Of a stretch of DNA of 44,562 nucleotides, positions 4,726 through 41,938 are shown piece after piece. The position numbers and the translations under genes were made by a program. Source of the stretch: a virus; the IMG/VR virus record IMGVR_UViG_3300048589_000384, positions 1-44,562 of that record; one strand, 5' to 3'. The notes below the pieces were generated by a model. It saw only the letters and a list, made by a program, of their open reading frames with translations, did no database searches and was not told the origin of the DNA. The stretch's first letter is position 1. The number at the start of each line of letters is the position of its first letter.

Positions 4726-4947
4726 CTATAAAATTATTATTTCTAAAGTTTGTTTCCCAAATTGTAGTGCTGATTGATACGCTTGTTCATCATATCCGAG
4801 AAAGAGGTCAAAACGCCCGTCATAGCGTAAATGTGTACGATCGCCACATGTCCACACCTTACCCATAATTTCTATTTGTATACCAAATTTGATGTTTCTT
4901 GGACACGCCACAGATTGACCAGCCACTGGTCGTTTGCCATTAGCCAT
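4726..4947 (-). CDS. 3D-domain protein, catalytic part (probably fused to 5016-5258 by -1 frameshift)
   Basis: The frame encodes the 3D (Asp-Asp-Asp) domain of RpfB/YuiC/MltA-like wall-active proteins: CPRNIKFGIQIEI, then CGDRTHLRYDGRFDLFLG with the three aspartates, then FGKQTLEI at the end. The ATG at 4947 cuts the domain: the preceding in-frame codons (4948-5028) encode its first strand, AVVTAYTAIETCTPEKC, yet contain no ATG, GTG or TTG before a stop at 5098-5100. Reading that part requires a -1 shift from the upstream membrane-anchor frame. The fused product would be 177 aa: anchor, linker, 3D domain. Known relatives are lytic transglycosylase-like muralytic domains. Confidence 0.8.
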   Translation of the reverse strand: MANGKRPVAGQSVACPRNIKFGIQIEIMGKVWTCGDRTHLRYDGRFDLFLGYDEQAYQSALQFGKQTLEIIIL

Positions 4948-5015
4948 AATACATTTTTCAGGTGTACACGTCTCAATCGCCGTATATGCAGTTACTACCG
5001 CTTCATATCCAGGTT

Positions 5016-5258
5016 CTAGCGGTTCCTTTTTACTTCTCGCATAAATATCATCTGTTCTTGGATGTTCTCGTGGTACTGTGCTAGTGCGTAATTGTACCTA
5101 GTTTCATTGGCATAGTGTACCGTACCTCCATACCATATCCCGAGCGTGGCGAATATGCCTATGTTTAGCCCGATAAGTACGGACGTGAGATACTTGTGTG
5201 TGTAGTGTTTGCTTGCAAGATAGCCGTATCTGCGCAAGAATTGTGTGTGTGAGGTCAT
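5016..5258 (-). CDS. Membrane anchor and linker of the 3D-domain protein
   Basis: 80 aa in the zero frame. The basic N-terminus is followed by one transmembrane segment (about residues 25-43, SVLIGLNIGIFATLGIWYGG) and a helical linker (ANETRYNYALAQYHENIQEQ). A GTG nine codons upstream is possible but ATG 5258, behind TAATAAATAT, fits better. The frame stops at 5016-5018, three codons after A AAA AGG (5031-5025), where a -1 slip enters the 3D frame. It is the first gene of the early operon from promoter 5408-5436. Confidence 0.75.
   Translation of the reverse strand: MTSHTQFLRRYGYLASKHYTHKYLTSVLIGLNIGIFATLGIWYGGTVHYANETRYNYALAQYHENIQEQMIFMREVKRNR
5025..5031 (-). promoter_or_regulatory. Candidate -1 frameshift slip site
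   Basis: Heptamer A AAA AGG in the anchor frame: lysine codon AAA in the P site can re-pair perfectly after a -1 move, and the next codon is the often rare AGG. The zero-frame stop follows three codons later. An AAGGA stretch overlaps it. No clear downstream hairpin was identified by eye. The alternative is a simple one-base error or mutation. Confidence 0.5.
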
Positions 5259-5407: not shown

Positions 5408-5436
5408 ACTATAGCAGAGTATTAGAGATATGTCAA
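5408..5436 (-). promoter_or_regulatory. Sigma70-type promoter of the early replication operon
   Basis: Minus-strand TTGACA (5431-5436), 17-nt spacer, TATAGT (5408-5413). The -35 lies within a palindrome, arms AGAGATG / TATCTCT (5424-5443), nearly identical to that at 1929-1948, and a perfect DnaA box lies upstream (5455-5463). It sits directly behind the late-operon terminator and reads toward 5258. Confidence 0.85.
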
Positions 5437-6981: not shown

Positions 6982-9363
6982 TTATATAAGTTTAGTACTG
7001 AGTAAAGATGCGACTTGTTGTGAAGTGAGAAAGTTTTGCGGTTGTTTCAGGTTTGCCTCTTTGCCTGGTTTTTTTATCGTAATATCCACGTGCGTTCCCT
7101 TACCACTGGCGATTTGTGCAGTAGATAATTTTGTACCTTGGCTAGATAATACGTTACCTGTGTTTCCTTGCTTCCCAATCGCTGTGCCTGCTTGTACCAC
7201 TTGTCCTTTTTTCACATCAGTTGCGTCAAGATGGGACAGCCACATTTCACTGCCATCCGCAAGCTGAATACGTACTTGATTTCCAAAACCTGCGTAGTTC
7301 CCGACGTATGTTACCACACCGCTTAATGGAGCTTTAACAGTAGCTCCTTTTCCACCATCAAGATAAAAATCAAACCCAGGAGCCCACGCACTACTCCCCG
7401 CTTGGATACCTGTCGCAACACCTTTTCCAAGAGCTGTAGTCACTTTTGAGCCGTCTTTGATGCCTTTGACTTCTGAGCTGTTTATGCCCAAGCTCAAGGG
7501 CTTATTAAAACTTACGTTAAGTATCTCAAGTATTTCATCATCACTATATTGTCCCATAAGTTTATCAATATATTTTTGTTTGTCTTCGTTCTTTAAGTAA
7601 TAATCATCTAAAATAGTTGATACATCTTTGTTTAATACACCACTGAAATCAGGTAAATACGAGTTGCCATCGCTTTCTCCTGTTTTTTTGTCTATAAGAC
7701 GTGCCTTTTCGTTATAATAATTTTGGTATTGTTGGTTTATAGTATCAAATTTAATATCAATCAAATTTTTAAATTGGTTTTTAACATCAGTTGTTAAAAA
7801 TTGACCATCTTTAAATTGACCATTAAATTTTTTAAAGGCTCCTTCAAATATAGCGCCACTTTTTGCTGCGACATCATATTCACTTTCTCGTACTACAGAA
7901 CTTGGGTCAAGTGCCTTCATAAATTCAAAAACTAATGCCAAATCTACTGGTCCGGCTTCTTTTAAACTTACCATTTGGTCTACAGATAGCTTTTTGTTAA
8001 GTACTTCATTATAAGTTTTTGTAATAGGAGCACCCTCAAATTCTGACCGTATTTTATCTATTTGAGATATAATTTGTGGAGACAACTCATTGTTATAAAC
8101 TGGAGGTATTATTTGTTTCCAATCTTTTATAGTACTGTCATATTCATAATATCCAGTTTTTTCTGTACCTATTATTTTTTTACCTATTTGAGCTTCTTCT
8201 TTGCTAGCCAAATAATCAAAGAAATCTCCAGTGAAGTTCGCATTTTGTTTTGCATATTCAAACTCCTGAAAAGCCTGTGGGATAAATTGTTGTTGTGCAC
8301 TCAAAATATCTAGTTCTCTTTTTCTATCTTCTTGGGACATTTTAGATAATTCGTAGGCTTTAGTAGTCAATGTGTTTTTAAGTTGAGCTGAACTTACCCC
8401 CATTTGTTCAGAGAGCGTTTGTATATCTGCATCGGTTGGCATACTTACTTCTCCAGTCACTGTATCAAAATCTAACAATGAGGTAGCATATGAATCAAGG
8501 TTTGTCTGCATTATTTCTTGTTTTGTTTTTTGTAAATCTAATTCAGCTTGTTGTGTTTGTAGGTCAAGTAGTTGCTTCTTCTGTAAATCGTCTTCTTCTG
8601 TTTTCAAAAGAGTATGCAAGTCTAAAACAGCTTGTTTTTTGTCATTGTAGGCTTTAGATGCACTATCCATAAATTCACTAAAGGTCTTCCATTTATCTTT
8701 TGCTTGAGATTTAAGTGCTTGTTTTGCCTGTTCAACCGCTGCAAGTTTCTGACTCTCTAGTTCACTGATTCTGTTCATTCCATTCTTAATCTCATTTGAA
8801 ACAAAGCCTTGCTGTATTTGAGAGGCGTATCGTGAAAGACCTGACTTAACACCGCTTATGTCCACTTGTTTACTCATTGAATTATTGATAACACCCATTT
8901 GCTCAATACGCTTATTAAAAGTATCTTTAATACTTTGGAGCAGTGGATTATTTTCAGCGTCAATAGCTTCAATATCTTTTGTGTAGTTTTCAAATTCCTT
9001 GTTTAGTTTATCGTATTGATTTTGTGCAAAAACAGCCTGGTCTTGTAAGGCTTTGACTGCATCATTTTGAGCAGTTTCTATGGGAGACGCTGGGGGAGCA
9101 GGTGTGGCAGGAGCCGTGGGTGTCGTTGTAGGTGTAGGAGTTACTGTTGGTGGGGGAGTTACTGTTGGACTAGCTGGTGCCTTATTCACGGGTGCTTGTT
9201 TAATTTGATACATCCAATCTTCTTGACCCAATTTAGCACTACCAGGTGCAACAACTTTGCCCTGCATAGGGTCATAATCAGCGTATTCACCGACAAACGG
9301 GTTTTCTAGTGCTCCCGTGTCTTGCCACTGTTTTTTTAATATACCATAATCTGGTGCGGGCAT
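6982..9363 (-). CDS. Large virion protein with C-terminal M23-like (LytM) domain
   Basis: 793 aa. Proline/threonine-rich linker at about 55-95 (TPTPTTTPTAPATPAPPASP), long coiled coils to about 310, a helical middle, and a C-terminal M23 fold at about 655-770: PGFDFYLDGGKG, APLSGVVTYVGNYAGFGNQV, SHLDATDVKKGQVV, GKQGNTG, THVDITIKK. The fold is clear but the first zinc histidine (HxxxD) is alanine and the HxH motif reads HVD, so hydrolase activity is doubtful. Probably an ejected or tail-tip protein that binds or formerly cut peptidoglycan. A signal peptide is absent, as expected for a virion protein. Confidence 0.75.
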   Translation of the reverse strand: MPAPDYGILKKQWQDTGALENPFVGEYADYDPMQGKVVAPGSAKLGQEDWMYQIKQAPVNKAPASPTVTPPPTVTPTPTTTPTAPATPAPPASPIETAQNDAVKALQDQAVFAQNQYDKLNKEFENYTKDIEAIDAENNPLLQSIKDTFNKRIEQMGVINNSMSKQVDISGVKSGLSRYASQIQQGFVSNEIKNGMNRISELESQKLAAVEQAKQALKSQAKDKWKTFSEFMDSASKAYNDKKQAVLDLHTLLKTEEDDLQKKQLLDLQTQQAELDLQKTKQEIMQTNLDSYATSLLDFDTVTGEVSMPTDADIQTLSEQMGVSSAQLKNTLTTKAYELSKMSQEDRKRELDILSAQQQFIPQAFQEFEYAKQNANFTGDFFDYLASKEEAQIGKKIIGTEKTGYYEYDSTIKDWKQIIPPVYNNELSPQIISQIDKIRSEFEGAPITKTYNEVLNKKLSVDQMVSLKEAGPVDLALVFEFMKALDPSSVVRESEYDVAAKSGAIFEGAFKKFNGQFKDGQFLTTDVKNQFKNLIDIKFDTINQQYQNYYNEKARLIDKKTGESDGNSYLPDFSGVLNKDVSTILDDYYLKNEDKQKYIDKLMGQYSDDEILEILNVSFNKPLSLGINSSEVKGIKDGSKVTTALGKGVATGIQAGSSAWAPGFDFYLDGGKGATVKAPLSGVVTYVGNYAGFGNQVRIQLADGSEMWLSHLDATDVKKGQVVQAGTAIGKQGNTGNVLSSQGTKLSTAQIASGKGTHVDITIKKPGKEANLKQPQNFLTSQQVASLLSTKLI

Positions 9364-41386: not shown

Positions 41387-41938
41387 TTAATTTTCTTCAA
41401 TTGTGAAACCAAGTGCGGCGAGAAAATCTGGGAGTTGACTGCGGAGTAGTGGTTTTGTTCCGCCTCGTCCATAGAATTTGACGTTTTGTAATTCAGTATT
41501 TTGCAAGTTCGAGCCACGCAAGTTCGAGCTACTCAAGTCCGAGCTACTCAAGTTCGAGCTACTCAAGTCCGAGCTACTCAAGTCCGAGCCACGCAAGTTC
41601 GAGCCACTCAAGTCCGAGCTACTCAAGTCCGAGCTACTCAAGTCCGAGCTACTCAAGTCCGAGCTACTCAAGTTCGAGCCACGCAAGTCCGAGCCACGCA
41701 AGTTCGAGCCACTCAAGTCCGAGCCACGCAAGTTCGAGCCACGCAAGTTCGAGCTACTATCCAACGCTTCTCTTACAGCCTCTTTCATTGTTGTTTTAGT
41801 CGACTGAAAAATAATCTCTCCTGTCCATCTGTTTTTTATTGCAATACCTAACGTCTTTGTTTCTTTCTGGTCGATAGTGTCGACATATTGTTTTAGCTCA
41901 TCAATCTTTTTGAGAGCTTCTTCTTTGGTGAGTGACAT
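41387..41938 (-). CDS. Pentapeptide-repeat protein
   Basis: 183 aa. N-terminal helix-beta domain (LTKEEALKKIDELKQYVDTI; IAIKNRWTGEIIFQSTKTTM), then about 17 pentapeptides of the form (D/N)L(S/R)(S/G)S from about 80 to 160 and a short helical end. Such repeats fold as a square beta-helix; Qnr/MfpA-type members mimic DNA and shield gyrase. The DNA encoding it is a near-perfect 15-bp tandem repeat. Gyrase protection is only a family possibility. Confidence 0.75.
   Translation of the reverse strand: MSLTKEEALKKIDELKQYVDTIDQKETKTLGIAIKNRWTGEIIFQSTKTTMKEAVREALDSSSNLRGSNLRGSDLSGSNLRGSDLRGSNLSSSDLSSSDLSSSDLSSSDLSGSNLRGSDLSSSDLSSSNLSSSDLSSSNLRGSNLQNTELQNVKFYGRGGTKPLLRSQLPDFLAALGFTIEEN
41504..41758. 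repeat. 15-bp tandem repeat (minisatellite) in the pentapeptide gene
   Basis: About 17 units of CAAGTTCGAGCTACT-like sequence in which only two or three positions vary. It opens all plus-strand frames, creating spurious frames of QVRAT and KFEPR repeats. Such purity suggests recent slippage-driven expansion, so copy number may vary between phages. Confidence 0.9.

Follow-up and report, generated by a model that had tools for sequence, protein, structure and literature searches.

How a protein that is spread over two overlapping reading frames comes to be made, if it is made at all, is the question raised by a locus on the minus strand of IMG/VR virus record IMGVR_UViG_3300048589_000384, of which 44,562 nucleotides were analysed (the window). 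An upstream ORF of 80 amino acids (5016..5258, minus strand) extends from the ATG at 5258 to a TAG at 5016-5018. It has a basic N-terminus and, judging from its sequence, specifies a single transmembrane (TM) helix in N-in orientation followed by a helical linker; the predicted transmembrane stretch, LTSVLIGLNIGIFATLGIWYGG (5124..5189, minus strand), is preceded by positive residues. The -1 frame, which is closed on the upstream side by a TAG (5098..5100, minus strand) and open from there to a TAG at 4726, encodes the 98 residues of a 3D (MltA/YuiC-type) domain (4726..5022, minus strand), recognised by homology and fold. No ATG, GTG or TTG occurs in this frame before the ATG at 4947 (4945..4947, minus strand), which corresponds to residue 26 of the domain. 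Initiation at this codon cuts into the domain: according to an AlphaFold model, the first strand, YEAVVTAY (4984..5007, minus strand; model residues 6-13), would be deleted. By homology to T91 of YuiC, it would also remove the threonine expected to orient the catalytic aspartate. In the zero frame of the anchor ORF lies the heptamer A_AAA_AGG (5025..5031, minus strand), the proposed slip site or else the site of a one-base indel. Re-reading of the frames upheld these positions as given in the preliminary description, which had proposed that the protein is made by -1 ribosomal frameshifting at the heptamer and had named a single-base assembly or mutation error as the rival explanation.

Most probably, this is a normally fused gene that has been broken by a single-base indel, be it a natural mutation or an assembly or sequencing error. 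Relatives were gathered by profile scans of IMG/VR and GTDB contigs and by host-group searches. Nearly all of them carry a hydrophobic N-terminal segment, a linker and the 3D domain in a single frame, an architecture that supports the earlier view of anchor and 3D domain as one intended protein. In the tree, the window clusters with L183, L185, L188 and L189 (support 94/98, unstarred), which belong to the same domain subgroup with a GR(F/Y)D(I/L)F(I/M/L)G(Y/F) insert; like the window, L185 has a TM segment and then a helical linker. Unlike the window, all four have one uninterrupted TM+3D frame and lack the slip heptamer at the junction, a region in which L185 has GAAGTAAGTGATGAA and no A-run. 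Overlapping frames and heptamer are therefore not kept by these four nearest relatives, which are at most about 53 % identical to the window. The gene is likewise uninterrupted in L100, from a record whose terminase is related to that of the window (52 % over 244 aa). Since the closest relatives have the gene in one piece, a one-base break is likelier than a programmed frameshift, and what was initially the rival reading is now preferred, with the qualification that no uninterrupted relative is closer than about 50 % identity.

In its usual form, the gene would specify a short cytoplasmic N-terminus, one transmembrane helix, a linker and an extracellular 3D domain, all in one frame. In the window, this frame would have suffered one break, plausibly in the A-run at 5031-5027; the -1-frame TAG at 5098-5100 and the anchor stop at 5016 confine any change of frame to the interval from 5100 to 5016. 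Translation of the sequence as written would give the 80-residue anchor, with the 3D domain made hardly or not at all. Codon usage, used as a locator of the frame switch, is flat across the overlap and uninformative. No other frameshifts were seen in the window relative to its relatives in the terminase, YqaJ, RecT and 3D regions, the only ones that could be compared. An altered genetic code for the window was also considered and rejected; the breaks consist of a frame change together with a TAG, and 6-7 other genes terminate in TGA. If the break is indeed ordinary, the locus carries a caution, namely that a fused gene with one break in it mimics a frameshift cassette when it is read alone, and that relatives settle the matter.

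Several observations nevertheless count against an indel. The nearest relatives are only 43-51 % identical to the window in the family alignment (53 % at most, for L188, in the tree analysis), so that none represents the intact version of the window's own gene. Both halves are fully conserved, unlike those of an old pseudogene, and assemblies built from short reads today seldom get the length of a five-A run wrong by one base. Moreover, two other phages, L085 and L160, have retained a stop codon at this junction. On the other hand, sister copies demonstrate that the gene does get broken in such contigs with no programmed shift involved. Over 700 bases, the only difference between L173 and L179 is an 8-base tandem duplication (GGAATGCA), by which the 3D protein has its C-terminus shifted and changed, and L180:2240-2737 is a broken copy in which the first strand lies in a frame other than that of the anchor and the domain core.

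The domain is a diverged member of the 3D/MltA-YuiC family, an assignment made by homology and predicted fold and not by Pfam. It falls below the gathering threshold of Pfam 3D (PF06725) and has no Pfam match, and one relative scores 16.5 bits where the threshold is 23.8. It is 43 % identical to a Paenibacillus plasmid protein annotated as '3D domain-containing' and is matched by the 3D protein of phage Perkons (E 6e-6). The AlphaFold model (pLDDT 94.8, with 22 aligned relatives) and its matches to PDB structures indicate an MltA-like double-psi barrel; MltA is matched with E 6e-4 and TMq 0.64 and YuiC lower, with E 0.03-0.04 and TMq 0.53-0.55, and the best viral matches are 3D proteins. In YuiC, D162 is catalytic and D151 binds sugar (PMC4499186). 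Their equivalents in the window, D72 and D61, are invariant in the family alignment, and the threonine of the first strand is present. The equivalent of YuiC D129 is absent from the window domain, which has VACPR in place of AVDP, and from close homologues including that of Perkons. Of the three-aspartate motif originally reported, two aspartates are thus conserved and the first is replaced, so the motif is two-thirds present only. The window domain resembles E. coli MltA and B. subtilis YuiC (SpsC group) in predicted fold, in the two invariant aspartates and in the first-strand threonine. It is unlike these lytic transglycosylases in lacking the first aspartate, in consisting of the minimal domain only, in scoring below the PF06725 threshold and in its split frame. 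Lytic transglycosylase activity, that is the cutting of glycan strands, is predicted.

Slippery motifs of -1 frameshifting have the form X_XXY_YYZ, with a stimulator usually spaced by 5-9 nt, and A_AAA_AAG, the E. coli dnaX site, shifts far more readily than other heptamers with an A-run (PMC5009743). The zero frame of the overlap contains no X_XXY_YYZ, only A_AAA_AGG, on which the P-site lysine tRNA can re-pair but a shift of the A site from AGG to AAG leaves a middle mismatch. The window shares with dnaX A_AAA_AAG-type cassettes a zero-frame A-run and an overlapping -1 ORF; it differs from them in that the heptamer departs from X_XXY_YYZ, no properly spaced stimulator was found and conservation is lacking. 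In random 27-codon stretches from this genome's genes, a zero-frame A_AAA is present in 39.5 % and a true X_XXY_YYZ in 16 %. A_AAA_AGG has its sole zero-frame copy here among the genes counted (0.7 expected), A_AAA_AAG is found in the zero frame of other genes in 4 copies, and AGG is a rare codon in this genome (33/10960). Over a 96-nt region, the downstream RNA has no extra stability compared with shuffled sequence (z = +0.67), and a stem of 6 bp that might form, ACCGCT/AGCGGT, would begin 1 nt past the heptamer as against the usual spacing. By eye, no SD-like purine run is present 10-14 nt upstream of the heptamer. Rfam and tRNA scans found nothing, and neither an exact nor a gapped DNA pattern across the slip site retrieved a second copy from IMG/VR. 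A run of only five A is short for transcriptional slippage, which was rejected on that account.

If a programmed -1 frameshift took place at A_AAA_AGG, the product would be mostly the 80-residue anchor, with a minority of a 177-residue anchored 3D enzyme whose dose is set by slippage. The frames overlap in the right direction for such a scheme, the A-run is near the anchor end and includes the rare AGG, the fused product has the normal architecture of the family, and in a related lineage, L085/L160, the junction retains a UGA. Set against these points are the uninterrupted nearest relatives, an A-site tRNA that cannot fully re-pair, a heptamer that is unconserved and at chance frequency, and a stem too close to it in a region no more stable than its shuffles. 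We consider a frameshift unlikely, and this mode of production, the central claim of the preliminary description, is not supported. Still less probable is an arrangement of two distinct genes, in which the anchor is a peptide of its own and translation of the 3D domain begins at a non-canonical codon (e.g., the ATT at 5046-5044) or by re-initiation. A precedent may exist in L102:2851-3288, a 3D ORF that has no ATG, GTG or TTG before its hydrophobic N-terminus and in which a purine-rich stretch, AGGGGGGG, precedes an ATT, so that a non-canonical start is possible there; L085 and L160 also have a conserved GTG within the first strand. However, the window has no canonical start before that strand, a domain devoid of anchor or signal would remain cytoplasmic, and the relatives are fused. 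As a special case of the indel, the gene could be a decaying pseudogene, its 3D enzyme no longer needed and its frame being lost. The disruption is a single one in an accessory gene, and broken copies occur in other family contigs (L180, L179), but the family alignment reveals no second lesion and all invariant domain residues are kept, so any loss would be recent; decay is the least probable of these explanations.

The UGA of L085 and L160 deserves attention in its own right. In both (L085:481-1110, L160:2168-2779), an in-frame TGA (TGA AGA GTN) lies exactly between the TM anchor ORF and the 3D domain, which follows directly in the same frame; the first strand has no start codon ahead of it and itself contains a GTG. 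The two 3D domains are 71 % and the anchors 47 % identical, with an excess of synonymous change in both parts (dN ~0.45 and dS ~1.36 for the anchor, dN 0.24 and dS 1.35 for the domain). A sense reading of UGA was rejected; TGA ends 9/37 long ORFs of the L160 phage, the anchor ORF included and thus about eight others, and hence is a stop there. Fused relatives have residues ahead of the strand (VVRAEVSAYT in L162) that match the RVxAE encoded between TGA and GTG, a point in favour of readthrough rather than initiation at the GTG, albeit one that concerns only a few codons. The junction is a candidate for UGA readthrough or, alternatively, for a split gene with an internal GTG start. As a candidate for recoding it surpasses the window locus, whose split is separate from that of L085/L160 on the tree. 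A broader proposal is that Patescibacteria phages repeatedly recode the anchor-3D junction, by a -1 shift in the window and by UGA readthrough in L085/L160, producing mostly anchor and a little tuned anchored enzyme. We regard this as rather improbable, and without the conserved UGA we would have set its probability lower. Were recoding true of the window as well as of L085/L160, it would represent a new means by which a phage limits its supply of a wall-cutting enzyme at an early stage of infection, in hosts that are hardly culturable.

Returning to the split gene of the window, its surroundings bear on the role of the protein. A consensus scan predicts a sigma-70-like promoter upstream of the anchor gene (TTGACA-17-TATAGT, 11/12, extended -10; 5408..5436, minus strand), the best sigma-70 match of its neighbourhood. 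Genes for Lin1244-like, DnaB_C, RecT and YqaJ proteins are located downstream, and the split locus would be the first gene of an early/replication operon. In L160, SSB is encoded directly downstream of the 3D gene, and a separate holin gene is followed by an amidase-like ORF (by eye). Because the best promoter match is upstream, replication genes are downstream and the lysis genes of L160 are separate, lysis is less likely than early wall modification. The protein had been described as lysis- or wall-active; the second part of this description is favoured, and the protein is likely to cut glycan strands or modify the wall early on, from its membrane anchor, instead of serving as the lysis enzyme.

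Similar settings are known from Bacillota elements. The 3D proteins of the Psychrobacillus phage Perkons (QJI52411.1), a Paenibacillus plasmid (WP_235123145.1) and a B. pumilus plasmid (WP_345806631.1) combine the domain with an N-terminal extension, as in the window, and their genes adjoin those for DNA polymerase or a DnaB-type helicase, comparable to the DnaB_C, RecT and YqaJ genes of the window. In contrast to the split gene, they are single and uninterrupted. Just upstream of the early operon, the window encodes at 6982-9363 a protein of 793 aa whose C-terminal part is an M23 peptidase domain, probably a virion-associated wall enzyme. Elsewhere, at 41387-41938, there is a pentapeptide-like repeat protein (S/N-L-R/S-G/S-S repeats), and the opposite strand also has long open frames.

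Membrane-anchored 3D-domain (MltA/YuiC-fold) proteins are widespread in Patescibacteria and their probable phages. The domain is present in 101 of 380 sampled Patescibacteria genomes and in 182 of the 244 genomes of one order. Among the strong Patescibacteria matches listed, cuts at contig ends aside, open frames have at least 117 aa and none is domain-only. From the relatives of its 3D domain, we infer that the window phage probably has a Patescibacteria host; searches that started from P0001 alone, from the helicase or from the 415-aa neighbour found no relatives. A membrane-anchored 3D protein at the head of an early operon is a lead to how phages modify the Patescibacteria envelope. Within this family, L204, L205 and L206 (Patescibacteria genomes G613, G615 and G616) carry an in-frame TGA in the 3D domain at a position where relatives have Trp (VDIW), and the anchor of L205 has a second one, which suggests that UGA may be read as Trp in that host lineage.
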